Below, in pieces: positions 561 to 14,760 of a stretch of 64,000 nt of DNA. The DNA is from Salinisphaera hydrothermalis C41B8 (GTDB taxonomy: Bacteria > Pseudomonadota > Gammaproteobacteria > Nevskiales > Salinisphaeraceae), in the NCBI RefSeq assembly GCF_000732535.1, contig NZ_APNK01000013.1, positions 1-64,000 on the forward strand. The letters are read 5' to 3'. Under the pieces are notes generated by a model. That model was not told where the DNA came from. It did not search any database and saw nothing but the letters and a program-made list of their open reading frames with translations. The translations under genes and the position numbers were made by a program. Each line of letters opens with the position of its first letter. Within the stretch, counting starts at the first letter, position 1.

Positions 561-1736
561 CTAAACAGTGCTCGCCCGGTCCATCTGCTCGGCAACAAAT
601 CGGCCATAGGCCTTGAAATCGAAAGTCTGCTCGAACAGACGTCGACCTGAGCTGGCGATCGCCTGGCGTTCGGTTTCATGGGTGGCGTAATAGCGGATTT
701 TATCGATCATATCGTCCAGATCGTCGAAGCAGACGAAATGCTCGTACTCGCGCGCCCCACCCGGTAGCGCCAAGGCCCGGATCGAGGGACTGCTCAAACA
801 AAACGCCGCCAGCAGCCACAGCTCCCAATGCCGATGCGTGAATTCGCCGAGGCCATCGAGGGCAAGGTTGACCCGCGATTCGCGAATCGTCTCGACATAG
901 CGCTCGGCATCAACGGCCGGCACGGCTACATCGGCGGCCACATCCGGGTCGATATCATGCCCCTGGATCCCGCCGATCGCATCCAGATCGGACGCCAGTA
1001 CGCGACGCCAGACTTCAGGCCGCAGGCGCGAGCTTTGCGTACCGTAGAAGCAGACGTCGTGGCGACAGTCGGTACTCGGCTCGGCATAGCCGAAAGCCCT
1101 GGGGTCGAGCCGGGCCACGTTGTGGCGCCGCGAGGGGATCAACGGACAGGCCAGCCAAGCCAGACGGATCTTGTCGCGATTGCGATCGGCAATCGCGTAG
1201 CGGTTCAAATCCGCGTAGTGCTCCCGCTTGAACACGACATCGAAGCAGTCCAGGCAGGCATCGTCGACCATGAAACCTGCTTGAGGATTACTGATGAAAA
1301 ACGCCTTGGGCAACCCGTCGATCCCGGCGATAAAATCGAACTCGCGTACGTTGACACCTTCGCCCGACGAATCCGACTTGCTGCATACGATCAGATAATC
1401 AAAACGCTTGGCCACCTCGCGGGCATGGCGCTTCAGCCACTCGAGCCGGGCCTCGGTCACGTCAAAGCTGGCGTGCAACGCCGAACGCATGAATCCGCAC
1501 TGCCCGCGCAACTTGCGGTAGCGATTTTTCTTACGCCGCAGACGCGTGATGGGGCCGGCGCCGATATCCGGATAGTAACGACCGATATATAGAACTCGAG
1601 CCACGCGCTTTAGGGTCAGCCGGCGATTGATAGCGTCCGATGATAGCGGATGATCAACCGTCGACCCCAAGAGCCTATCCCAATAGGCTAAGCGGCCGGC
1701 CACGCCATCGTCACAGCCCGACCGCGTGGCGTACAT
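561..1736 (-). CDS. Glycosyltransferase, CgeB/GT1-like
   Basis: Last gene of the leftward glycan set. The C-terminal third has a single-domain glycosyltransferase pattern: a RESRVNLALDG stretch, an HRHWELWLLAAFCLSS segment and a closing helix with ETERQAIASSGRRLFEQTF, as in CgeB/YkvP-type transferases. The N-terminal Rossmann strand reads ARVLYIGRYYPDIGAG. The open frame begins at an ATG at 1736 and overlaps the upstream gene by 26 bases, but residues 18-23 are encoded by a short repeat also found at 36,872. A GTG at 1604, just before ARVLYIG, is therefore a possible true start (347 residues). Acceptor and donor sugar cannot be told. Confidence 0.72.
   Translation of the reverse strand: MYATRSGCDDGVAGRLAYWDRLLGSTVDHPLSSDAINRRLTLKRVARVLYIGRYYPDIGAGPITRLRRKKNRYRKLRGQCGFMRSALHASFDVTEARLEWLKRHAREVAKRFDYLIVCSKSDSSGEGVNVREFDFIAGIDGLPKAFFISNPQAGFMVDDACLDCFDVVFKREHYADLNRYAIADRNRDKIRLAWLACPLIPSRRHNVARLDPRAFGYAEPSTDCRHDVCFYGTQSSRLRPEVWRRVLASDLDAIGGIQGHDIDPDVAADVAVPAVDAERYVETIRESRVNLALDGLGEFTHRHWELWLLAAFCLSSPSIRALALPGGAREYEHFVCFDDLDDMIDKIRYYATHETERQAIASSGRRLFEQTFDFKAYGRFVAEQMDRASTV
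1670..1687. repeat. 18-base dispersed repeat, copy 1
   Basis: AGAGCCTATCCCAATAGG here matches the complement of 36,872-36,889 at 17 of 18 positions. Its first bases resemble the terminal repeat of the IS5-family element at 11,087 (GAGCCTGTTTC), so it may be a relic of an insertion-sequence end. Confidence 0.55.
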
Positions 1737-2562
1737 GCTCCCAGGCTCGCCCGTCCGCCAATTCGCTGTGCTGCCACTGCTTCCAGGCTAGGTCGCAACA
1801 CCAGGCCTGCCGATCCGGTCTCACCAACGGCGCCTCGATTGCATGACTAGCCATGGGCCAAGCCATCGACCCCGGCCCTTCGACCACCACCGGCACTCCG
1901 GCCAGCACGGATTCCACGCCGGTCGTGGAACTATAGGTCACCACTTGGCCGGCGGCCGCCAGCTCAGTCGCCAGATCGCAATCCGACAACGCCGCCTCGG
2001 GCGGGCAAGGCGTCGGCTTGAGCGGATGTGGGCGATATACCACGTGCTTATCGAGCGCAGTCAGACGCGCGGCCCGATCGGCGGCCCACTGCGCCACGTC
2101 GATACCGTCGAGAGAGATATCGCCCGGCACCTGCCCGATCAACAGAACCCGATCGGATGAGTGCGCTTGCCACGGCGCCAGTTGATGACCGAAATAACGA
2201 GCAAACCGCTGGCCGTCGTCCGCCGGGCCAGCGTAGCGGCCCCGCCGATTCAGACCGTCGAAAGCCAGACTCGCCCACTCCCGACGCGGCTGCAGAAAAC
2301 CCCGTTCGATAATCAGCGCGTGCTGCCCGTTCGCCCGCAGGCGCTCAAACATGGCGGGTTCATGCCAGCCCCAGAAGACATGTACATCGGCGTCAAGCGG
2401 TGCACCCGGCCGATGCAGTCGAGTTTTGATGCCGTGTTTCTTGAAGCCACGACGCAGTGCGATGGACCACTCTATCTTGTGGCGCTTGCGTCTAAAGCGC
2501 CGCCGTGATCGCCGCGTCCATGGCCAGCCTTCGGGATACGTATGGAAACAGACCTCGATCAC
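1711..2562 (-). CDS. Capsular polysaccharide biosynthesis-like glycosyltransferase
   Basis: Predicted 283-residue cytoplasmic transferase starting at a GTG, with GGAG 12 bases upstream. The C-terminal half carries VLLIGQVPGDISLDG, then VYRPHPLK and TYSSTTGVESVLAGVPVVV. The last is the typical donor-binding loop of capsule/Kdo-transferase-type enzymes (Capsule_synth superfamily). The N-terminus has a basic run (RRSRRRFRRKRHK, residues 17-29) that could lie against the membrane. It sits between the GT29-domain gene and the CgeB-like gene, so a role in finishing the same surface glycan is likely. The exact sugar is unknown. Confidence 0.72.
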   Translation of the reverse strand: MIEVCFHTYPEGWPWTRRSRRRFRRKRHKIEWSIALRRGFKKHGIKTRLHRPGAPLDADVHVFWGWHEPAMFERLRANGQHALIIERGFLQPRREWASLAFDGLNRRGRYAGPADDGQRFARYFGHQLAPWQAHSSDRVLLIGQVPGDISLDGIDVAQWAADRAARLTALDKHVVYRPHPLKPTPCPPEAALSDCDLATELAAAGQVVTYSSTTGVESVLAGVPVVVEGPGSMAWPMASHAIEAPLVRPDRQAWCCDLAWKQWQHSELADGRAWEHVRHAVGL

Positions 2563-2644: not shown

Positions 2645-3748
2645 TCACGGGTGCCAATGCAGTCGGGCGTCGGCTTCGATCAGCGACAGCGCGCGCCGCC
2701 GCTCGGCGTCGAAATCATGATCGGGGGACATCGGGCGCGTGGGCTGACTGGCCGAATGGGAAGCGCCAAAATCGAAGCCGTAAATATCGAGGCGCGCGCA
2801 ATCCGAGGCCGCAAGCAAATCGATAGCCTTCATGCCGGTAGACGCAATCTTACCCAACTCGCGTGCCAGATGAACATCGCGTGCTTTGGAAAACATATGC
2901 AGCCGTCCGGAGGCGAACATCCAGGCCGGAATGTTACGCATCATCTTGGCCCGGCGACTGACCCAGACCATGCGCTGGATGCCGCGTGACTCGGCGGTTG
3001 CTCGACTGATCGGCAAGCCGGTCACCACCCAATCGGTACGGCTGCCGTGTGAATATTCCGCCACCAGAATGCCCCGGTTACAGCGCACTACGACATCGGC
3101 GGCATCGATGGCCGTCCCATAGTCGCGCTCGGCCAGCGAGACGGCATTGCCGACCAGTGCCACATGCTTACCGGCCAGTTCCCGCAACAGGCGCCGTTCC
3201 GACACAGTGCCGCGCACCAAACGCCAGAGGCGGCCAGCCAATCGCTGTCGGCGGCGCGCCCAGGTCGCTCGGCGTTTGGCTCGCCGCTGCAGATCCGCCA
3301 CCCTGGCGGCCAAGGCCGCATCAACCGGAGCGGTGACGATCACACAGTATTCGCGCGGCGTATTTTCGATCGTCTCGGCATGACCGAACACCGCGGCAAG
3401 CCGTTGGCACCACCATTCGGCGTCGTGCACGCTGGCAAATTCGTTCCTGCCACCGACCAGCGGGCCAGCCGAATAGCGGGTCGCAATGCGAAACACGCCA
3501 AACGAGGCGACCCGGAACGCGGCATCCAGGGCGCGGTCGATGGCGGCATCGTCCAACCAGTGCAGCACGCGATCGCTGGCAACGAGCGCGACGCCGGCCT
3601 CGCTATCGGCGATCCGCTCGCCATCGATTCTGGCCCGGAAACCCTGCTCGATTAGGCGCGTGGCTCCTACGGATTCTGCCACCGCGCCCACCCAGTCGGG
3701 CGCCTCGCCAAGGGCGTGCTGGTATAGAACCGGATCGGGCCTAAACAT
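2645..3748 (-). CDS. GT29 (sialyltransferase-type) protein with N-terminal methyltransferase-like domain
   Basis: Predicted 367 residues. A longer frame opens to 4048, but its first 100 codons only shadow the upstream gene; the ATG at 3748 overlaps that gene's stop by 8 bases, suggesting coupled translation. The C-terminal half carries the GT29 sialylmotifs in order: motif L at about 194-240 (VALVGNAVSL, VVRCNRG, GSRTDW), motif S at about 301-328 (ASTGMKAIDLL, IYGFDFG) and an H-x4-E pair (H344, E349) matching motif VS. These bind CMP-sialic acid in known members. The N-terminal half (VLHWLDDAAIDRAL and following) resembles a degenerate class I methyltransferase. With CMP-sugar synthesis genes 3-7 kb away, transfer of a sialic-acid-like sugar is the best inference. 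Confidence 0.78.
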   Translation of the reverse strand: MFRPDPVLYQHALGEAPDWVGAVAESVGATRLIEQGFRARIDGERIADSEAGVALVASDRVLHWLDDAAIDRALDAAFRVASFGVFRIATRYSAGPLVGGRNEFASVHDAEWWCQRLAAVFGHAETIENTPREYCVIVTAPVDAALAARVADLQRRAKRRATWARRRQRLAGRLWRLVRGTVSERRLLRELAGKHVALVGNAVSLAERDYGTAIDAADVVVRCNRGILVAEYSHGSRTDWVVTGLPISRATAESRGIQRMVWVSRRAKMMRNIPAWMFASGRLHMFSKARDVHLARELGKIASTGMKAIDLLAASDCARLDIYGFDFGASHSASQPTRPMSPDHDFDAERRRALSLIEADARLHWHP

Positions 3749-4775
3749 CTGCGATACGCGCATACAGCGCCTGGTATGCATCGGCCATACGCGCCACCGA
3801 AAAACGGGCGGCTGTGCTTTGACCCGCCGCCCCCAGAGCCCGCGCCAGCTCGGGCTCGTCCCGCAGACGGATGAGCGCGTTGAACAAAGTGTTTTCATCG
3901 CCGGGCGGAACCAACAAGCCGTTACGACCGTCGTCGACGAACTCTGGCAACCCATCGACTGCCGAGGCCACGACCGGCAAGCCCGCGCGCATCGCGTCCA
4001 AAGCGGCGCCGCCGATCCCTTCATGGCGCGATGGCAATACGAACGCATCGGCAGCAGCTAAATAGTCGCCGACGTTGTCGACGAAACCGGCGAACTCGAT
4101 GTTCGCGAGCCCACGCGCCTGGCGTTCGAAAGCCGTACGATCGCGCCCTGCGCCGGCCAGAACGAAATGCATGCCCGGCCGCTCTGAAGCGGCTCGACGC
4201 GCGACCTCGATCAAATGCGACTGGCCTTTCTGGGCATCGACGAGGGCCGCCACATTCAACACGACGAACGCATCCCCCCAACGCTTGCGCAGGGCCTGCG
4301 AACGCCCCCGATCCACTGGCAGATCGGACAGCGCACTATAGATCGTCGCCACATCGCGCTGCGCGTAATCCGCGATTTCACGCGCCACCGATCCGGCCAC
4401 ACCCACACAGGCCGCCGCATCGCGATAAATCGCCCGGGTCACGACATTCGCGCTCGGCCGCTTGCCGATCCGGCGCGTGACGATGTAAGGCGTACCTGCC
4501 ACACGCCAACGCCACCACGCCAACTGCGCCGCCCGGGTTTCGTGGGCATGCAGCACGGCCCCTCGCACACTGGTCACGCGCATCGCGAACGGCTTACGAA
4601 CGGGAACGATCTCCAGATCCGACAGATCAACCAGGCGCTCGGCGAGCGGCTGGCCCCGCCGAGCGATCAGCCTCTGGGCCACACCACGGCGCGCAAGCTC
4701 GCGAATTAACAATTCAGTCTGGCGTTCACCGCCTCGATAACCGCGCGCCAGATTGAGATGACAAATTCGACTCAT
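3741..4775 (-). CDS. Glycosyltransferase family 4
   Basis: A 344-residue GT-B protein. The N-terminus has the ARGYRGGERQTELLIREL acceptor-domain signature. The C-terminal donor domain has VLNVAALVDAQKGQ, FVLAGAG, then HEGIGGAALDAMRAGLPVV and NGLLVPPGD. The usual E-x7-E pair reads E-x7-D here, a conservative change. Its N-terminal signature is nearly the same as that in the relic at 14,399-14,760, so the two derive from one family. It lies in the leftward glycan set and its stop overlaps the start of the GT29 gene. It probably adds a sugar to lipopolysaccharide core or O-chain. Confidence 0.85.
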   Translation of the reverse strand: MSRICHLNLARGYRGGERQTELLIRELARRGVAQRLIARRGQPLAERLVDLSDLEIVPVRKPFAMRVTSVRGAVLHAHETRAAQLAWWRWRVAGTPYIVTRRIGKRPSANVVTRAIYRDAAACVGVAGSVAREIADYAQRDVATIYSALSDLPVDRGRSQALRKRWGDAFVVLNVAALVDAQKGQSHLIEVARRAASERPGMHFVLAGAGRDRTAFERQARGLANIEFAGFVDNVGDYLAAADAFVLPSRHEGIGGAALDAMRAGLPVVASAVDGLPEFVDDGRNGLLVPPGDENTLFNALIRLRDEPELARALGAAGQSTAARFSVARMADAYQALYARIADV

Positions 4776-6818: not shown

Positions 6819-7931
6819 ATGCTACCCCACGCGACCATGGACAAAGTCAAGATCTACGGTGCCGGTTCGATCGGCAACCATATGGCCCACGCGGCGCGCT
6901 CGCTCGGCTGGTCAGTCGCGATCTGCGACCCCGATCCGGCGGCACTCGAGCGCACACGGCACGATATCTACCCCAGCCGCTATGGCCAGTGGGACGAGGC
7001 AATCGAGCTGTACGATCCCGCCGATGCGCCGACTGGCCAACACGACCTCATCATCATCGGCACACCGCCGGATGCGCATATGCCCCTGGCGCTTGCCGCC
7101 ATCGACGAGGGCCCGAAGGCGATTCTGATCGAAAAGCCGGCCAGCACGCCGGAATCCGAACTCGATCGCCAGGTGTTCGAACGTGCCCGTGCAGCGGGGG
7201 TGCGCGTGTTCGTCGGCTATGATCACGTCGTCGGCCTTGCGACCCAACGCTTTGATGAACTGGCGGGTACCGACACGGTCGGAACTGTCACCACGCTGGA
7301 TGTGGAATTCCGCGAGTACTGGGGCGGCATCTTTGCGGCCCACCCCTGGCTGGACGGCCCCGCCGACAGCTATCTCGGCTACTGGCGACGCGGCGGCGGC
7401 GCGCTGGGCGAACACTCGCATGCGCTCAATCTCTGGCAGCACATGGCCCACGTGGTGGGCGCCGGGCGCGTGGTCGAAGTCTCGGCGCTGCTCGATATTG
7501 TCACCGACGGCGCCGCGGAATACGACCGGCTGGCGGCGTTGCACTTGACCACCGAACACGGGCTGCGCGGGCGCGTGGTTCAGGATGTGGTCACCCAGCC
7601 CACGCGTAAATGGGCCCGACTGCAAGGCAGCACCGGTTACGTCGAATGGGCGGCCGGATATGCCCCGGGGGCCGATGCCGTCATCCACGGCTCGGGGAAT
7701 TCGGCTCCCGAAACAGAGAAGTTCACCAAGAGCCGGCCCGACGATTTCATTGCCGAGCTCGATCACATCAATACACATGTGCAGGATGGATCGACCTCGC
7801 CGCTGGAACTGTCGCGCGGGCTGGATACCATGATGGTGATTGCGGCGGCACACCGCTCGCACCGGGAGCAACGGGTCGTGCGTCTCGATGAAGCCGAACC
7901 CTACGACATTCGCGGCATGGCCGGCGCCTGA
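6819..7931 (+). CDS. Gfo/Idh/MocA-family NAD(P)-dependent oxidoreductase
   Basis: A 370-residue protein with an N-terminal Rossmann fold (IYGAGSIGNH), then LIIIGTPPDAH and ILIEKPAS, the family's EKP motif with the conserved lysine. The C-terminal half is the mixed sheet domain. An ATG at 6837 would also serve as start. First gene of the nonulosonate-type operon, 35 bases before the NeuB-like gene. Family members oxidise or reduce sugars and nucleotide sugars; here it probably prepares or edits the aldose that the synthase condenses with phosphoenolpyruvate. That role is inferred from position. Confidence 0.85.
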   Translation: MLPHATMDKVKIYGAGSIGNHMAHAARSLGWSVAICDPDPAALERTRHDIYPSRYGQWDEAIELYDPADAPTGQHDLIIIGTPPDAHMPLALAAIDEGPKAILIEKPASTPESELDRQVFERARAAGVRVFVGYDHVVGLATQRFDELAGTDTVGTVTTLDVEFREYWGGIFAAHPWLDGPADSYLGYWRRGGGALGEHSHALNLWQHMAHVVGAGRVVEVSALLDIVTDGAAEYDRLAALHLTTEHGLRGRVVQDVVTQPTRKWARLQGSTGYVEWAAGYAPGADAVIHGSGNSAPETEKFTKSRPDDFIAELDHINTHVQDGSTSPLELSRGLDTMMVIAAAHRSHREQRVVRLDEAEPYDIRGMAGA

Positions 7932-7966
7932 GCGCGTCACCGCAGAGCAACAAGAGGAGCGCCCGC

Positions 7967-9595
7967 ATGCGTCAGTCCTATGATTTCAATGACCTGTTCG
8001 TGTTCGAGATGGCCAACAACCATCAAGGCGACGTCGAGCATGGCCTGAGGATCATTCGCGAAATGGGCGCCGCAGCCGCCGAATACGGGGTCCGCGCGGC
8101 GATCAAATTCCAGTTCCGGCAACTCGATACGTTCATCCATCCGGACTATCGCGAGGCCAGCGAACCCAAGCATATCCAGCGGTTTTTATCGACCGAGTTG
8201 TCGCGCGACGAATTCCAGACGATGTTCGACGCGGCCCGCGCCCAGAATCTGCTGACCATGTGCACGCCGTTCGATGAAGCGTCGGTGGACGTGATCGAGG
8301 AGATGGGTTTCGACATCATCAAGGTCGCCAGTGCCTCGTGCCAGGACTGGCCGTTGCTCGAACGGATTTCCGAGGCCAACCTCCCGGTGATCGTCTCCAC
8401 GGGCGGCCAGGATATTGCGGCCATCGACAACATCTCGAGCTTCTGCCATCACCGCGGTATCGATCATGCGCTGATGCATTGCGTGGCGTTGTATCCCACC
8501 CCGGACGAGCACTGCCAACTCAACCAGATCGATCGCCTGCGCGAACGTTATCGCGATACCACGATCGGCTGGTCGACCCACGAGGATCCGGGCGACACCG
8601 ATGTCGTGATCGCCGCCTATGCCAAGGGCGCGCGCATGTTCGAAAAACATGTCGGTGTCGTCGATGGGCCGGTCACTCAACTTAATGCCTATTCCGCCGA
8701 CCCGGATCAGGTCAGGGCCTGGCTGGCCGCTTACAAGAAAGCCGTGGCCCTATGCGGCGACGATACCCGCGAAACCCGGCATACCGAGGCCGAGCGCGAT
8801 GCGCTGGCAGCGCTGCAACGCGGCGTCTATGCCCGCGAACCGCTGGCGCCGGGACAGCAATTAACGATGGATGATGTCTTTTTCGCCATGCCGCTGCAGG
8901 ATGGCCAACTGACCTCGGGCCGCTTCAAACCGGGCACGACGGTCAAACAAGCCGTGGAATCCAATGGCGCGGTGGCCTTCAGCAACGTCGATATTCCCAG
9001 CGACCCGGACCGCAAGGTCATTCAGTCATCGCTGCATCAGATCAAGGCGATGCTCAACGAGGCGCGTATACCGCTGAACTCGGACTTCAAGGTGGAATAC
9101 TCGCATCACCACGGCGTCGAGAATTTTCGCGAAGTTGGCGCGGTTCTCATCGACGTGGTCAATCGCAAGTACTGCAAGAAGATCGTCGCGCAGTTGCCCG
9201 GCCAATATCACCCGGCCCACTTTCACAAGCTCAAGGACGAGACCTTCATCATTGTCCACGGCACCCTGCATCTGGAGGTCGACGGCCATCACAAAGTGCT
9301 CTCGCCGGGCGAAACCGCGGTCGTACAACCCGGGGTATGGCATCACTTCTGGACCGAGACCGGCGTGATTTTCGAAGAAATCTCGTCGACACATAAAAAC
9401 GACGATTCGTTCTACAAGGACAAGCGCATCAACCGCATGCCACGCAGCGCACGCAAAACGATCGTCGACCACTGGGGCCGCTTCACCCTGCGTGACGAGG
9501 ACGAGGCGGAAAACGAGATCTGGCCGCCGCAGCGGCGCGCCGCTGAAGACGAAGCATCCGCCGAGGCCGAGCCCAACTCGGCAATCGACGGCTAA
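7967..9595 (+). CDS. NeuB-type sialic acid synthase fused to SAF and cupin domains
   Basis: A 542-residue protein with three domains. Residues 10-260 are the NeuB barrel (FEMANNHQGD, IKFQF, MCTPFDEASVD, STGG, EKH), which condenses an aldose with phosphoenolpyruvate. Residues 285-345 are the SAF (antifreeze-like) domain that caps the active site. Residues 370-475 are a cupin with metal-site pattern H418-x-H420, E425 and H459. A 50-residue acidic tail follows. Classical NeuB ends after SAF at about 345 residues, so the cupin is extra; it resembles sugar-isomerase-type cupins and might supply the aldose. AGAGGAG stands upstream of the ATG. The stop abuts the phosphatase gene. Confidence 0.88.
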   Translation: MRQSYDFNDLFVFEMANNHQGDVEHGLRIIREMGAAAAEYGVRAAIKFQFRQLDTFIHPDYREASEPKHIQRFLSTELSRDEFQTMFDAARAQNLLTMCTPFDEASVDVIEEMGFDIIKVASASCQDWPLLERISEANLPVIVSTGGQDIAAIDNISSFCHHRGIDHALMHCVALYPTPDEHCQLNQIDRLRERYRDTTIGWSTHEDPGDTDVVIAAYAKGARMFEKHVGVVDGPVTQLNAYSADPDQVRAWLAAYKKAVALCGDDTRETRHTEAERDALAALQRGVYAREPLAPGQQLTMDDVFFAMPLQDGQLTSGRFKPGTTVKQAVESNGAVAFSNVDIPSDPDRKVIQSSLHQIKAMLNEARIPLNSDFKVEYSHHHGVENFREVGAVLIDVVNRKYCKKIVAQLPGQYHPAHFHKLKDETFIIVHGTLHLEVDGHHKVLSPGETAVVQPGVWHHFWTETGVIFEEISSTHKNDDSFYKDKRINRMPRSARKTIVDHWGRFTLRDEDEAENEIWPPQRRAAEDEASAEAEPNSAIDG

Positions 9596-10291
9596 TTGGT
9601 GGCGGCTTTGATCAAGGCCGTGGTCTTTGATTTCGACGGTACGCTAGTGCTGTCGAATCAAATCAAATACGACGCGTTTCAGCAGACGGCCGAAGCCCAC
9701 GGCCTGGACCCGGAGCGCGTGATGGCGCTGCGCCACACGCATCCGGGGGCCAACCGGCACCAAATCTTTGCCGAGCTGTCGCGCCAATTACGGGCCGAGG
9801 GGTTCGATCACATCCCGGACGGCCCGACTTTCGTTGCCACCTATGCTGACATCGTGACCCGTGAGGTGACGCGCTGCGACTGGGTGCCGGGCGCCGAGGC
9901 CACGCTGGACCGACTGGCCGCACGGGGTCTCGCATTGTTCATCAATTCCGCCACCCCAAGTGACGGTCTGCTCCCGATCGTCGAAAAGCGCGGCATGCAC
10001 ACACGCTTTCAGGCGGTTCTGGGCGGCCCGGACAGCAAAATCGACAACCTGAATCGCATTGCACGACAGACGGCTCTCGAACCGACCGCCATGGTCATGA
10101 TCGGCGATGGCGAAGACGATCGCATAGCGGCGGCGTCGTTTGGTTGTCATTTCATCGGCGTTGAGCTCGAGACCGAGGACCACGGCCGCCCGGCTCACCG
10201 CCTAACGGTAAGACCCACGCATCTCGTGCCGGACCTGAGTGGTGTACCCGAGCTTATCGATGCGATCGTAGCAGACCGGAGCACGCCGTAA
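9596..10291 (+). CDS. HAD-superfamily phosphatase
   Basis: A 231-residue HAD hydrolase. Motif I is FDFDGTLV with the nucleophile Asp, motif II is INSATPS, and motif IV is MIGDGEDD. The start is TTG or the next codon GTG, immediately after the synthase stop, so translation is probably coupled. Between a NeuB-type synthase and a CMP-sugar synthetase, the natural reading is dephosphorylation of a nonulosonate phosphate, as in the KDN/Neu5Ac 9-phosphate route. The substrate is inferred. Confidence 0.82.
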   Translation: MVAALIKAVVFDFDGTLVLSNQIKYDAFQQTAEAHGLDPERVMALRHTHPGANRHQIFAELSRQLRAEGFDHIPDGPTFVATYADIVTREVTRCDWVPGAEATLDRLAARGLALFINSATPSDGLLPIVEKRGMHTRFQAVLGGPDSKIDNLNRIARQTALEPTAMVMIGDGEDDRIAAASFGCHFIGVELETEDHGRPAHRLTVRPTHLVPDLSGVPELIDAIVADRSTP

Positions 10292-10293
10292 TC

Positions 10294-10995
10294 ATGTACG
10301 CCGACTACAAGATTCTGGCGGTCGTACCCGCGCGCGGCGGTAGCAAGGGCGTACCGCTGAAAAACATCCAGCCGATCCAGGGCATCCCGCTGGTGGCCCG
10401 CGTCGGCCATCTGATATCAGAGTTGCCGGAGATCGACCGCGCGGTCGTTTCCACCGACCACGACGAAATCGCCCGAATCGCCGAGGCATCCGGCCTGGCC
10501 GCCGATTGGCGTCGGCCACCGGCGCTGTCCGGCGACCGGATTGGCGATCTCGACGTGCTCACGCATGCCTTGAACGAGACCGAACAACGCGATGGGCAAC
10601 GCTACGACATCGTGCTCATGCTCCAGCCGACATCGCCCATGCGCACCGCCGCGCACGTTCGCGACACCTACCGCAAACTGATCGACGAAGGGCGGGATGC
10701 AGTCTGGACCGTCTCCGAAACCGATTCGAAATACCATCCACGCAAACAACTGACGCTAACGGACGACCAACTCGGCTATTACAGCCAGGACGGCGGCCAG
10801 ATCATCGCGCGCCAACAGCTGGATGCGCTCTATCACCGCAACGGTGCCGCCTATGCTTTCACTCGCGACTGTCTCGTCGAGCAACGCAACATCATGGGCG
10901 CGAACACGGCCGGCTTGATCACCGAGGACATGGTGAGCATCGATACGCCCTTCGATTTCCGGCTCGTCGAGTTCTTGCTCGCCGACAAGCATTAG
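10294..10995 (+). CDS. neuA: CMP-sialic acid synthetase-type cytidylyltransferase
   Basis: A 233-residue enzyme that activates a keto-deoxy sugar acid with CTP. It has the P-loop-like ARGGSKGVPLKN at about 10-21, LQPTSPMR, NGAAYAF and the metal-binding SIDTPFD. Length matches the NeuA/PseF/LegF group. It starts 2 bases after the phosphatase stop and is the last gene of the operon. A weak stem (11,017-11,038) with five Ts follows. Product would be the CMP-sugar used by the GT29-domain protein at 2,645-3,748. Which sugar is made cannot be read from sequence. Confidence 0.87.
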   Translation: MYADYKILAVVPARGGSKGVPLKNIQPIQGIPLVARVGHLISELPEIDRAVVSTDHDEIARIAEASGLAADWRRPPALSGDRIGDLDVLTHALNETEQRDGQRYDIVLMLQPTSPMRTAAHVRDTYRKLIDEGRDAVWTVSETDSKYHPRKQLTLTDDQLGYYSQDGGQIIARQQLDALYHRNGAAYAFTRDCLVEQRNIMGANTAGLITEDMVSIDTPFDFRLVEFLLADKH

Positions 10996-11137: not shown

Positions 11138-11539
11138 ATGACCTCGAAGATCGTATCCGACGAACTCTGGGCCATTGTGGAGCCGCTATTGCCGGAGCCT
11201 GAAGTGAGCGCGCGCGGCGGTCGCCCGCCGATTTCCAATCGGGCGGCGCTGACCGGCATTCTGTTCGTACTGCGCTCGGGCATTCCTTGGCACATGCTGC
11301 CCCAGGAGATGGGCTGCGGCTCAGGTGTGACGTGCTGGCGTCGACTCCGGGACTGGCAACAGGCGGGGGTCTGGGATCGGCTGCACGAGGTGTTGTTGCA
11401 GCAGCTGCATCAGGCTGATCGGCTGGACTGGTCCCGCGCCTGCGTCGACAGCGCCAGCCTGGCGGCTAAAAAGGGGGATCGGCCATCGGTCCCAACCCGG
11501 TCGACCGCGGCCGCCCTGGGAGCAAACGACACCTCGTGA
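11138..11539 (+). CDS. IS5-family transposase, upstream frame (orfA)
   Basis: 133 codons. Residues 1-110 are the DUF4096-type N-terminal domain ([40 protein letters not shown]). ACVDSASL holds the first catalytic Asp of the DDE triad. After AAKKG the frame loses IS5 similarity, while the -1 frame takes it up. The full enzyme therefore needs a ribosomal frameshift. Confidence 0.85.
11470..11476 (+). other. Putative -1 ribosomal frameshift site
   Basis: The heptamer A_AAG_GGG is in the zero frame of orfA. Slipping back one base gives [20 protein letters not shown], the expected IS5 continuation, with no gap or stop. This placement explains the split transposase without assuming a mutation. Confidence 0.7.
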
Positions 11540-11940
11540 CGAATCGGTATGGCCGACCTCTGGCCGTCCAGCTGTCCGGGGCCAACCGAAACGATTGCCA
11601 GCTATTGGCGTCGTTGTTGGATCGCATACCACCCATTCAAGGGCGACGGGGTCGCCCACACTATCGACCTCGGAAGCTGCATGCCGACAAGGCCTACGAT
11701 CACCGGCATTGCCGTCGCGCGTGCCACCGACGCAGCATTCGGCCCCGTATCGCGCGGCGGGGTGTGGAAGCTAGTCAAAGGCTCGGACGCCATCGCTGGG
11801 TTGTCGAGCGTACGTTCGCCTGGTTGAACGGATTCAGACGGTTAGCTATCCGGTACGAGCGTCGGGCTGACATTCACTACGCCTTGACGGTTCTCGGATG
11901 CGCGATGATCTGCTTCAACCACTTAAAACATGGGTTTTGA
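11536..11940 (+). CDS. IS5-family transposase, downstream frame (orfB)
   Basis: Contains the rest of the DDE domain: LHADKAYDH with the second Asp, and [21 protein letters not shown] with the catalytic Glu and the Y-(2)-R-(3)-E-like signature of IS4/IS5 enzymes. In this frame sequence similarity extends upstream to the slippery site at 11,470. The listed start is a GTG inside orfA; expression is more likely by frameshift than from that codon. Confidence 0.85.
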
Positions 11941-11991: not shown

Positions 11992-13446
11992 TCATGTTTT
12001 CGGACTTAGGAGGGCCTGAACTTCGGTACGCATGGACGCCACCAGAACGTTACGATCTCGCGCTGATAATTGCGCCGCCCGATCATCGTTGGCTCCGACA
12101 AACCAATGCCGGCTTTCGTCGCGGATAAACTGCGCGAGGTCCGCTCGCACCTGCTCGGGTGTTTTTGCCGCGAGCTCGTTCATCATTCCGGGCAATGCCT
12201 TCATATCGCCAATCGCTGGCGCACTGGCACAGGCCGAGTGCCACGTCGGCACGAAAGTCAGCCCCGGGATGCCGTGCTTGAGCCCTTCGAATACGGAAGA
12301 CCCATTGCAGGAAGCCGTAAGCTCGGCTCCGGCAATCAACCCATCCGCGGGTGCGAATGCATCCATGAGCACGGCATTGCCGAGTTCGGCAATACCCTGA
12401 TACAGCGGCTGGCGCCCGTAATGCAGACAACGCAGATCCGGCCGGCGATCGCCCAACTGACGCGGATGCTCCTTGACCACCAAGATCCAGTCACGCGGCA
12501 TCGCCCGCGCCAGCGCTGTAATAGCTCGGAGTTGATCGTGGTAAAAGCCCGCCTCCGGCACCGTGGTGCGTTCGGGTTGGTAATGCAGGGCGAAATAGAT
12601 ATAGGGGGCGGACGGGGCGTCTCGCCGGGCATGCCGAGTCAAATACGATAGATCGGCTCGCCGTTCGCGATCACGCCGCAACGCATAGCGATACAAACGC
12701 CACCAGGGTTGGCGGAAATAGTGATGATGCCGATAACCATGCCGCGCCCGATAATACCGGCGTATCAGCTTCCACTTGAGCCCGAGCCCCATGGAGCGAT
12801 ACGCCGCGGATTCCGCCCGGCGGTTGATTTCATGCGACCGCTTGAGCCGCCCCGACACTTCGCCCAGCGTGTCGAGCCATGCATCTGCCGACAAGCCTGC
12901 CGCCGCCGGCGGCAACGGCGCACGTCCGCAAACCAGGTCGGTATCGAAAAACATACCGTCCGGCAGCTGCGTTCGTTTAAAGATATAAGCCGGCACCTTC
13001 AGGCGCCGACATACGTGAAAGAACACGATATGCCAAGGGAAGTGCGGCGTATGGGCGAACCAAACCACAAGAGTCGACGCCCGCTCCGAAATCCACGCCT
13101 CGAGTCCACCCACTAACGCCCAGAAATACCGCTCGGCCTCGCGTGCCGGCAACGGGTCGAGAAACACTCGGTCCAACGCTCGCGCAAACTGCCGCCATGC
13201 CTCGGCATATTCTATTTCCATGACCGCATCGACGACCTCGTTGGCACCCGCGGTGTGCGGCACCTCGTCGACGCGTTGATAGGGTTGCCAATCGAAATAT
13301 GCGAAGTCGTGGCCCCGACCCGCCGTATCAGCCCGCCCTGAACGGCCACCGATCAGAACATCGTGTTGCTGGGCAAACCCGAGCAACATCTCCTGCATGA
13401 TGGGGTAATCGGCGAAATCGGCACCAAACAGCAGCTTGCGTTGCAT
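11992..13446 (-). CDS. Capsule-type polysaccharide transferase, full length
   Basis: A 484-residue protein. A longer frame to 13,632 only shadows hldD; MQRKLLFGADFADYP at 13,446 begins 2 bases after the hldD stop and is the better start. The C-terminal domain has YIYFALHYQPERTTVPEAG, ILVVKEHPRQLG, LTASCNGSSVFEG and GIPGLTF, the Capsule_synth-type donor-binding pattern. The last 170 residues are paralogous to the left-edge gene at 2-544, which lies in the opposite orientation. Operon with hldD suggests a role in lipopolysaccharide or capsule assembly. Donor and acceptor are unknown. Confidence 0.75.
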   Translation of the reverse strand: MQRKLLFGADFADYPIMQEMLLGFAQQHDVLIGGRSGRADTAGRGHDFAYFDWQPYQRVDEVPHTAGANEVVDAVMEIEYAEAWRQFARALDRVFLDPLPAREAERYFWALVGGLEAWISERASTLVVWFAHTPHFPWHIVFFHVCRRLKVPAYIFKRTQLPDGMFFDTDLVCGRAPLPPAAAGLSADAWLDTLGEVSGRLKRSHEINRRAESAAYRSMGLGLKWKLIRRYYRARHGYRHHHYFRQPWWRLYRYALRRDRERRADLSYLTRHARRDAPSAPYIYFALHYQPERTTVPEAGFYHDQLRAITALARAMPRDWILVVKEHPRQLGDRRPDLRCLHYGRQPLYQGIAELGNAVLMDAFAPADGLIAGAELTASCNGSSVFEGLKHGIPGLTFVPTWHSACASAPAIGDMKALPGMMNELAAKTPEQVRADLAQFIRDESRHWFVGANDDRAAQLSARDRNVLVASMRTEVQALLSPKT

Positions 13447-13448
13447 GC

Positions 13449-14402
13449 TCACGCAGTACGCCGAGCGGCCAACCAATCGAGATAACGCGGCACCCCCTCT
13501 TCTACCGGCATGAACGTGTTCGGGTAGCCCGCCTGCTGCAAGGCGGCCATATCGGCCTCGGTGAAACTCTGATAACGCCCAACCAGCGACTTCGGGAAAT
13601 CGATATAGCGTTTCTCGCCGCGGCCATGCCAAGCGATCACGGCGTCGGCCACATCGTTGAACGTCTGGGAGCGGCCGGTGCCGCAGTTATAGATGCCCGA
13701 CACCTGCGGGTTGTCGAGCAACCACAGATTCACCGCGACCACGTCGTCGACATGGATGAAATCGCGCCGCTGTTCGCCACTGCCATAGCCGTCCGAACCC
13801 GCGAACAGGCGGCACTCGCCATCCTCCGCGATTTGGTTCGAAAAGTGCCGTGCCACGCTCGCCATTCGACCCTTGTGGCCTTCGCGCGGGCCATAGACGT
13901 TGAAATAACGCAGCCCGACGACCTGCGAGCGGCGCGCTCGTCCTTGTGCCCGTACGTACTGGTCGAAGGCAAACTTGGAAAACGCATACATATTGAGCGG
14001 TTTCTCGGCGTTGCGGCGTTCGACAAAATCCGGGCCCATGCCGTAGACCGACGCCGACGACGCATAAAGAAACGCCACCCGATGGCGCTGGCACCAGGCA
14101 TGCAGCGTTTTCGAATACGTGAAGTTGCGCGCCATGACATAGCGCCCGTCCCATTCCGTGGTGTCGGAACAAGCACCTTCGTGGAATACCGCATCGATGC
14201 CGCCGGGCATGTCGTCGGCCGCCATGCGGCGTTCGAGTTCGTCGTATTCCAGGTAATCGGCAAAGTCGAGATCGGCCAGGTTCAGACATTTATGGCCATC
14301 GGCTAGGTCATCGACGATCAGGATGTCGCGAACGCCACGGGCGTTGAGCCCAGCCACGATATTGCTGCCAATGAAGCCGGCAGCGCCGGTCACAATGATC
14401 AT
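13449..14402 (-). CDS. hldD: ADP-L-glycero-D-manno-heptose 6-epimerase
   Basis: A 317-residue SDR-fold epimerase converting ADP-D-glycero- to ADP-L-glycero-manno-heptose for the lipopolysaccharide inner core. It begins MIIVTGAAGFIGSN (NADP-binding GxxGxxG), then FHEGACSDTTEWDG typical of HldD, the catalytic Y-x3-K (YAFSK), RYFNVYGPREGHKGRMASV and the C-terminal heptose-binding region. The longer frame to 14,624 is not real: the ATG at 14,402 overlaps the TGA of the glycosyltransferase relic upstream. Downstream it is followed after 2 bases by the capsule-type gene. Confidence 0.93.
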   Translation of the reverse strand: MIIVTGAAGFIGSNIVAGLNARGVRDILIVDDLADGHKCLNLADLDFADYLEYDELERRMAADDMPGGIDAVFHEGACSDTTEWDGRYVMARNFTYSKTLHAWCQRHRVAFLYASSASVYGMGPDFVERRNAEKPLNMYAFSKFAFDQYVRAQGRARRSQVVGLRYFNVYGPREGHKGRMASVARHFSNQIAEDGECRLFAGSDGYGSGEQRRDFIHVDDVVAVNLWLLDNPQVSGIYNCGTGRSQTFNDVADAVIAWHGRGEKRYIDFPKSLVGRYQSFTEADMAALQQAGYPNTFMPVEEGVPRYLDWLAARRTA

Positions 14403-14760
14403 TTCGCTCGATCCCCTTGCGACAAACCCGTCATGTGCGCGCCGATCTCCGCATACCAGCGGCGGTAACGCGCGGCCATGGCCGCGGCAGTATAACCGGC
14501 GACGCGCTCGCGACCGGTCGCCGCCAGCCGTTTCGCCCGTGTCGGATCGTCGCGCAGCCTGTGTACGGCCCGCGCAAGAGCGTACGCATCGCCCGCTGGC
14601 ACGAGCAACCCGTTTGCCGCCCATGCTTGATAAAGCGTGGGCGCATGCCGTGGCCCGCCAGCTCGCGGATCAGCAGTTCGGTCTGCCGCTCGCCGCCGCG
14701 AAAGCCGCGGGCCCGATTCATAGGGGTGAGCAAGCGCGCGCCCGGCGCGATGCGGTTCAT
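14399..14760 (-). pseudogene. Glycosyltransferase family 4 relic with internal deletion
   Basis: The ATG at 14,760 overlaps the glnE stop and opens a frame with RARGFRGGERQTELLIREL, the N-terminal signature of the GT4 gene at 3,741-4,775. After about 45 codons similarity stops. In another frame the far C-terminal part of the same family follows (NGLLVPAGDAYALARAVHRL to WYAEIGAHM) and ends in a TGA overlapping the hldD start. About 230 residues including the donor-binding site are missing and the join is out of frame. The gene must once have been an intact GT4 transferase in the glnE-hldD unit. Confidence 0.8.

Follow-up and report, generated by a model that had tools for sequence, protein, structure and literature searches.

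Bacterial GT29 proteins have been in print since 2018, when Petit et al. reported 23 sequences, 19 of them alphaproteobacterial (PMC5811610); a GT29 in a bacterium is therefore not in itself surprising, and in presenting it as such the first-pass annotation of the DNA considered here was out of date. The published sequences carry the same motifs L, S and VS as the protein described below and lack the animal-type disulfide; the passages of that paper that we found mention neither a methyltransferase-like domain nor Salinisphaera. The plant protein RCKT1/MGP2, a GT29 in an organism without sialic acid, has been proposed to be a CMP-Kdo transferase (PMC11288761), the same donor that is the main rival reading for our protein. 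It differs in being a Golgi enzyme acting on pectin, and a fused domain is not reported in the passages found. A paper of 2026 linked a GT29-GT107 protein of the Escherichia coli K6 capsule to a putative Kdo polymer (PMC13171606); as far as the parts found tell, the idea that a bacterial GT29 uses Kdo as donor has thus already been proposed in print. Compared by description, this is likewise a bacterial multi-domain GT29 protein linked to ulosonic acid transfer, but its partner domain is a second glycosyltransferase, whereas in our protein it is methyltransferase-like (PMC13171606). What is surprising about the present locus is not so much that a bacterium has a GT29 as the class of this GT29, the dead methyltransferase domain and a recurrent pairing of the two gene types.

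The gene and its GT29 domain

The window, i.e. the whole stretch of DNA analyzed, comprises 64 000 nucleotides of Salinisphaera hydrothermalis C41B8. The gene occupies positions 2645–3748; the first-pass coordinates were correct, and the coding strand is the minus strand: an ATG there opens a frame of 367 codons, and stops interrupt the plus strand. Its start codon overlaps by 8 nt the stop of a GT4 glycosyltransferase gene lying upstream (3741–4775, minus strand). As judged from its sequence, the 367-residue protein is a C-terminal GT29 domain with an N-terminal class I methyltransferase-like domain devoid of SAM-binding motifs. All parts are encoded on the minus strand: the degenerate methyltransferase domain (residues 1–140; 3329–3748), a long linker helix predicted from the secondary structure of the model (residues 144–190; 3179–3319) and the GT29 catalytic domain (residues 191–367; 2648–3178).

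The protein scored 41.1 bits against PF00777 (curated Pfam cut-off 23). A single-sequence search of the PDB gave ST3Gal1 as sole match, at 0.018; with a profile of nine bacterial rows ST3Gal1 was reached at 5e-10 and other GT29 enzymes at up to 8e-5, and the profile-based search returned GT29 entries only, no GT42. Sialylmotif L (residues 193–239; 3032–3172), sialylmotif S (residues 299–327; 2768–2854) and motif VS, H344-x4-E349 (2702–2719), the predicted catalytic base and acid, all on the minus strand, are retained in all four Salinisphaera genes. The key residues of these motifs vary little or not at all across Salinisphaera and the rows of class A (one of two genomic classes, A and B, described below). 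The alignment, PF00777 and the profile search thus bear out what had been claimed for the C-terminal half, namely sialylmotifs L and S and the H-x4-E of VS. Motif III is not evident: in the alignment the protein reads SASQP where class B rows read TYYNP, and the displayed class A rows have SLSLSG at this stretch. The TYYN/TYYNP assignment uses what we take to be the motif III consensus.

A model of the GT29 half was made from a four-sequence alignment (block pLDDT 60 to 94 over this half). The comparison of folds proposed earlier gave, for this predicted structure, a GT29 fold; the best PDB match was 2wnb, ST3Gal1 (Z 15.3, 188 residues, 4.3 Å), and the top 14 entries were all GT29 (Z 12.4–15.3). 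The related fold of GT42 (CstII of Campylobacter jejuni) ranked next, under these 14, with Z 12.3, i.e. below the best GT29 entries yet within 1 of the weakest GT29 rows. With animal ST3Gal1 our protein shares the predicted fold and motifs, but it is only ∼20% identical, is without the motif L cysteine and has a different motif III stretch; in contrast to animal GT29 enzymes it is bacterial, would be cytoplasmic and carries the extra N-terminal domain.

A degenerate methyltransferase at the N-terminus

The N-terminal domain alone had no Pfam match at E 1. The profile of nine bacterial rows additionally retrieved stand-alone methyltransferases, and an HMM built from eight intact relatives of this family scored the window's N-domain at 32.2 bits (28.8 to 36.2 bits for the four Salinisphaera N-domains); the best of 1000 shuffles reached 6.2 bits, which ruled out homology by chance. 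The C-terminal signature of the methyltransferase family, LP[ND]GxNAHxTVxxxxWW, is retained as PLVGGRNEFASVHDAEWW (residues 96–113; 3410–3463, minus strand), as its alignment to 24 viral methyltransferases shows. Both SAM motif I, the glycine-rich LD[FY]GCG, and the acidic YDP motif are absent in all four Salinisphaera N-domains, and for this reason we call the N-domain a degenerate domain rather than a methyltransferase. The missing motif is not due to a wrong start, an explanation that we ruled out because the open frame of the S. japonica ortholog is only 370 residues long. The first-pass view of this half as a degenerate methyltransferase thus held up, given the HMM scores and the loss of the SAM motifs.

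In a model built with the 24 viral methyltransferases (mean pLDDT 70; residues 26–51 poor) the match to methyltransferase structures was only modest, with best Z 8.6 over 87 residues, and Foldseek gave no match at 0.001; the model itself depends in part on the true methyltransferases in its alignment.

Fusion of the two domains was seen only in Salinisphaera, in four genes of three genomes; PF00777 was likewise found in 3 of the 14 genomes of the genus, in four genes, two of them in S. japonica. A search for the fusion elsewhere in the class (369 genomes, 1e-6) added one genome, G869, matched over the GT29 part alone; no plasmid relative was matched. No intact methyltransferase partner was found in the window's own genome at 0.001 besides the fusion itself. 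We found no report of a GT29-methyltransferase fusion or gene pairing in the open-access literature searched; a degenerate methyltransferase fused to a GT29 is a domain architecture found in no paper searched.

Neighboring genes

The S. japonica ortholog, 65% identical to the window protein, is flanked on both sides by the same neighbors: the GT4 gene and, downstream, a conserved gene at 1711–2562 (minus strand) without a Pfam family. Divergent from them runs an operon on the plus strand (6819–10995). Its first gene codes for a Gfo/Idh/MocA oxidoreductase (6819–7931), followed by a NeuB-family synthase with a D-lyxose isomerase-like cupin domain (7967–9595), a HAD phosphatase (9596–10291) and a CMP-sugar synthetase, or cytidylyltransferase (10294–10995); no equivalog cut-off was reached in it. 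The local CMP-sugar genes on which the first-pass annotation had relied are thus present. Within the genus, 2 of 14 genomes have the NeuB-cupin gene; these are also the two with the 65% ortholog pair, and gene order is conserved. In the third genome with the fusion (G010, 81% complete) the contig stops near the expected place of the operon, so that its absence there is uninformative.

Two genomes of the order have a relative of the NeuB-cupin protein, 43–45% identical, close to a cytidylyltransferase; the stretches of roughly 20 kb around these relatives (L040, L041) have no GT29 match.

The window codes for HldD, ADP-heptose 6-epimerase (13449–14402, minus strand; TIGR02197 408.8 bits, cut-off 274.6), and the S. 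japonica locus has genes for KdkA, an LpxL-like protein and HldE; these genes place the cluster in LPS biosynthesis. Neither the 1711–2562 gene nor the one at 11992–13632 has a Pfam family at 0.01 or a convincing PDB match; a resemblance to KpsC-type Kdo transferases is possible. Between the cytidylyltransferase and 11992–13632 lie two overlapping ORFs (11138–11940) that we take to resemble an IS5-type transposase. Between HldD and glnE a remnant of a second GT4 copy is seen at 14444–14721, its head (residues 7–37) and tail (residues 285–341) in different frames and its middle missing; S. japonica has its second GT29 paralog at that place.

Two genomic classes of bacterial GT29

Of the 295 genomes that share a family with genome G417, 51 were matched by the GT29 profile A1 at 0.001. 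We dropped eight with weak or N-domain-only matches (G527, G593, G607, G640, G643, G649, G701 and G724) and added G437 to the 43 strong ones; the resulting 44 fell into 32 genomes of class A (the alphaproteobacterial GT29 class), nine of class B and three others. NeuB is present in 2 of the 32 class A genomes; in class B it is present in all nine, in seven of them ≤1.8 kb from the GT29 gene; the three other GT29 genomes have none. Among 36 GT29-negative genomes, taken as the first by number rather than by random draw and all counted, 13 have NeuB. Fisher tests, which ignore relatedness, gave p 0.003 for class A versus negatives and p 2e-7 for class A versus class B; the classes were drawn from A1 scores with the NeuB result already in view, and A1 itself includes class A rows.

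In a tree of 51 of the 54 rows (all except L031, L036 and G605) the proteins of Salinisphaera form a clade with class A (support 98/94); class B is not one clade there, since G661 falls apart from its other members. A CTP_transf_3 gene, which we read as a candidate KdsB, occurs in 32 of 32 class A genomes (best E 2.5e-39 to 2.2e-30). With NeuB in only 2 of 32 genomes of class A, most relatives of the window protein cannot use home-made sialic acid; given also that in 7 of 9 class B genomes the GT29 gene stands beside NeuB, the name ‘sialyltransferase’ is to be taken as putative. The sialic acid donor that this name had implied is not supported, as NeuB is in 2 of 32 genomes of the closest relatives and the protein, at the motif III stretch, does not read as the NeuB-linked class does. 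Splitting bacterial GT29 by whether the genomic class has sialic acid synthesis opens the donor question to direct tests, and it bears on whether the ancestral GT29 donor was Kdo or sialic acid.

A class B locus of G543 (L091, 3361–11999) has its GT29 gene amid genes for NeuC (360 bits, cut-off 235.9), NeuB, a cytidylyltransferase, a sulfotransferase and a WaaA-like protein; this GT29 is a promising candidate for a genuine bacterial sialyltransferase of the family, with LPS as its target. In high-GC loci genes were called by codon-position score, as longest-ORF calling yielded false long genes. The GT4 neighbor of class A genes might be LpcC; we do not claim it, as NCBIfam gave general GT4 models below cut-offs only.

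Donor and function

As best explanation, to which we give about an even chance, the 2645–3748 gene encodes a cytoplasmic GT29 CMP-ulosonate transferase of LPS assembly, inverting by the rule of its family, with the CMP-sugar of the NeuB-cupin operon as most likely donor and a former methyltransferase as N-domain. The enzyme would add a Kdo-like or nonulosonic acid residue during assembly of the LPS core or O-chain. Its donor would most likely be the CMP-sugar made by NeuB-cupin, phosphatase and cytidylyltransferase, with CMP-Kdo a close second; either of these is likelier than sialic acid. The ancestor of the N-domain would be a class I methyltransferase of the kind found alongside GT29-like enzymes in phages and in a single bacterial genome; the N-domain, its SAM binding lost, is probably a structural or acceptor-binding part. 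Co-occurrence of NeuB-cupin and GT29 in two genomes is a thin basis for naming the donor, and the operon's product could instead be used by the protein of 1711–2562 or of 11992–13632.

The alternative that survives best, although we consider it rather unlikely, is a CMP-Kdo transferase, the NeuB-cupin operon feeding another transferase of the locus. CMP-Kdo is favored by the nesting of the Salinisphaera proteins in a class that mostly goes without NeuB and always has a CTP_transf_3 gene; a further cytidylyltransferase, of KdsB-like type, is encoded elsewhere in the window's genome, and the proposals for RCKT1 and the E. coli K6 protein, as far as the parts found go, point the same way (PMC11288761; PMC13171606). 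The conserved clustering with the NeuB-cupin operon in both complete genomes having the ortholog argues against it, and what holds for class A genomes does not have to apply to the Salinisphaera donor.

It is improbable, in our view, that the N-domain is decaying baggage rather than a working part and that the GT29 half alone matters. The N-domain has indeed lost its SAM motifs and diverges faster than the GT29 domain (56% versus 73% identity); yet it is retained in all four genes, which are of two paralog types, and both domains are under purifying selection, with dN/dS of about 0.2 in both of two comparisons (dS being near saturation in one). We hold it very improbable that the protein is a sialyltransferase in the true sense, with CMP-Neu5Ac or a closely related nonulosonic acid as donor: the predicted fold is closest to ST3Gal1, a NeuB-family synthase is nearby and the nearest PDB relatives of the cytidylyltransferase are CMP-Neu5Ac synthetases, but the NeuB-cupin protein is far under the NeuB and PseI equivalog cut-offs, no NeuC relative was found within the window at 1e-4, the motif III stretch is not retained and class A genomes are mostly without NeuB.

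Paired methyltransferase and GT29-like genes in phages and bacteria

Returning to the origin of the N-domain proposed in our best explanation, we considered 84 viral loci, made up of the best 80 matches to the methyltransferase alignment and a scan with the protein of phage DLP6. The METHYLTRANSFERASE link was seen here: among these best matches listed, fetched by the methyltransferase alone, 32 of the 84 loci hold a GT29-like gene. In 17 of the 32 listed pairs the two genes share a strand and are no more than 120 bp apart; all 17 have the methyltransferase in front, which is also its place in the fusion. The remaining 15 differ in gene order, strand and spacing. Clustering at 40% identity sorts the 32 listed loci into six groups, one of which comprises 19, so that independent pairing events are far fewer than 32. 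As a control, three shuffled sets and a reversed set of the 4455 ORFs gave no match.

Conversely, the methyltransferase is present in 7 of 77 viral loci fetched by GT29; no viral ORF holding both was found. The 77 loci came from 182 pattern-matched stretches, 133 of which encode a relative (L209–L285, e.g. L209:6016–6579); another viral GT29-like gene is that of phage DLP6 (L042:5965–6756), near which lie two members of the methyltransferase family. The comparison of eight phage GT29-like proteins with Pfam speaks against a pairing with GT29: one passes the PF00777 cut-off, three score below it and four are unmatched at 0.1. Used singly in viral scans, the L043 and L044 proteins matched only themselves, and no report of a phage GT29 was found in the literature searched.

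On the bacterial side, members of the methyltransferase family are uncommon: at 1e-12 they occur in 8 of the 295 genomes of the G417 family. In one of these, G500, an intact member precedes a GT29-like gene by 38 bp on the same strand; this GT29-like protein, too, scores under the PF00777 cut-off.

Occurrence of the two protein types as adjacent separate genes in phages suggests a shared sugar-capping module. Tentatively, and with the chances somewhat against it, one could generalize: a class I methyltransferase and a GT29-like ulosonic acid transferase may form a recurrent two-gene module for glycan capping, by transfer and methylation, widespread in phages and transferred between phages and bacteria; Salinisphaera would have fused the pair, the methyltransferase becoming a pseudoenzyme domain, and the class would transfer Kdo or another non-sialic ulosonic acid. 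Such pairing offers a possible route by which phages could alter the glycans of surfaces or of virions. In a phmmer search with the window and L091 enzymes, no phage-supplied CMP-sugar synthetase or NeuB was found at 1e-6 among the 161 listed viral loci holding GT29-like or methyltransferase genes.

Relatives of the 1711–2562 gene of the window are present in 8 of these 161 listed loci; in two viral loci (L184 and L207) the methyltransferase is directly followed by such a relative, in place of a GT29.
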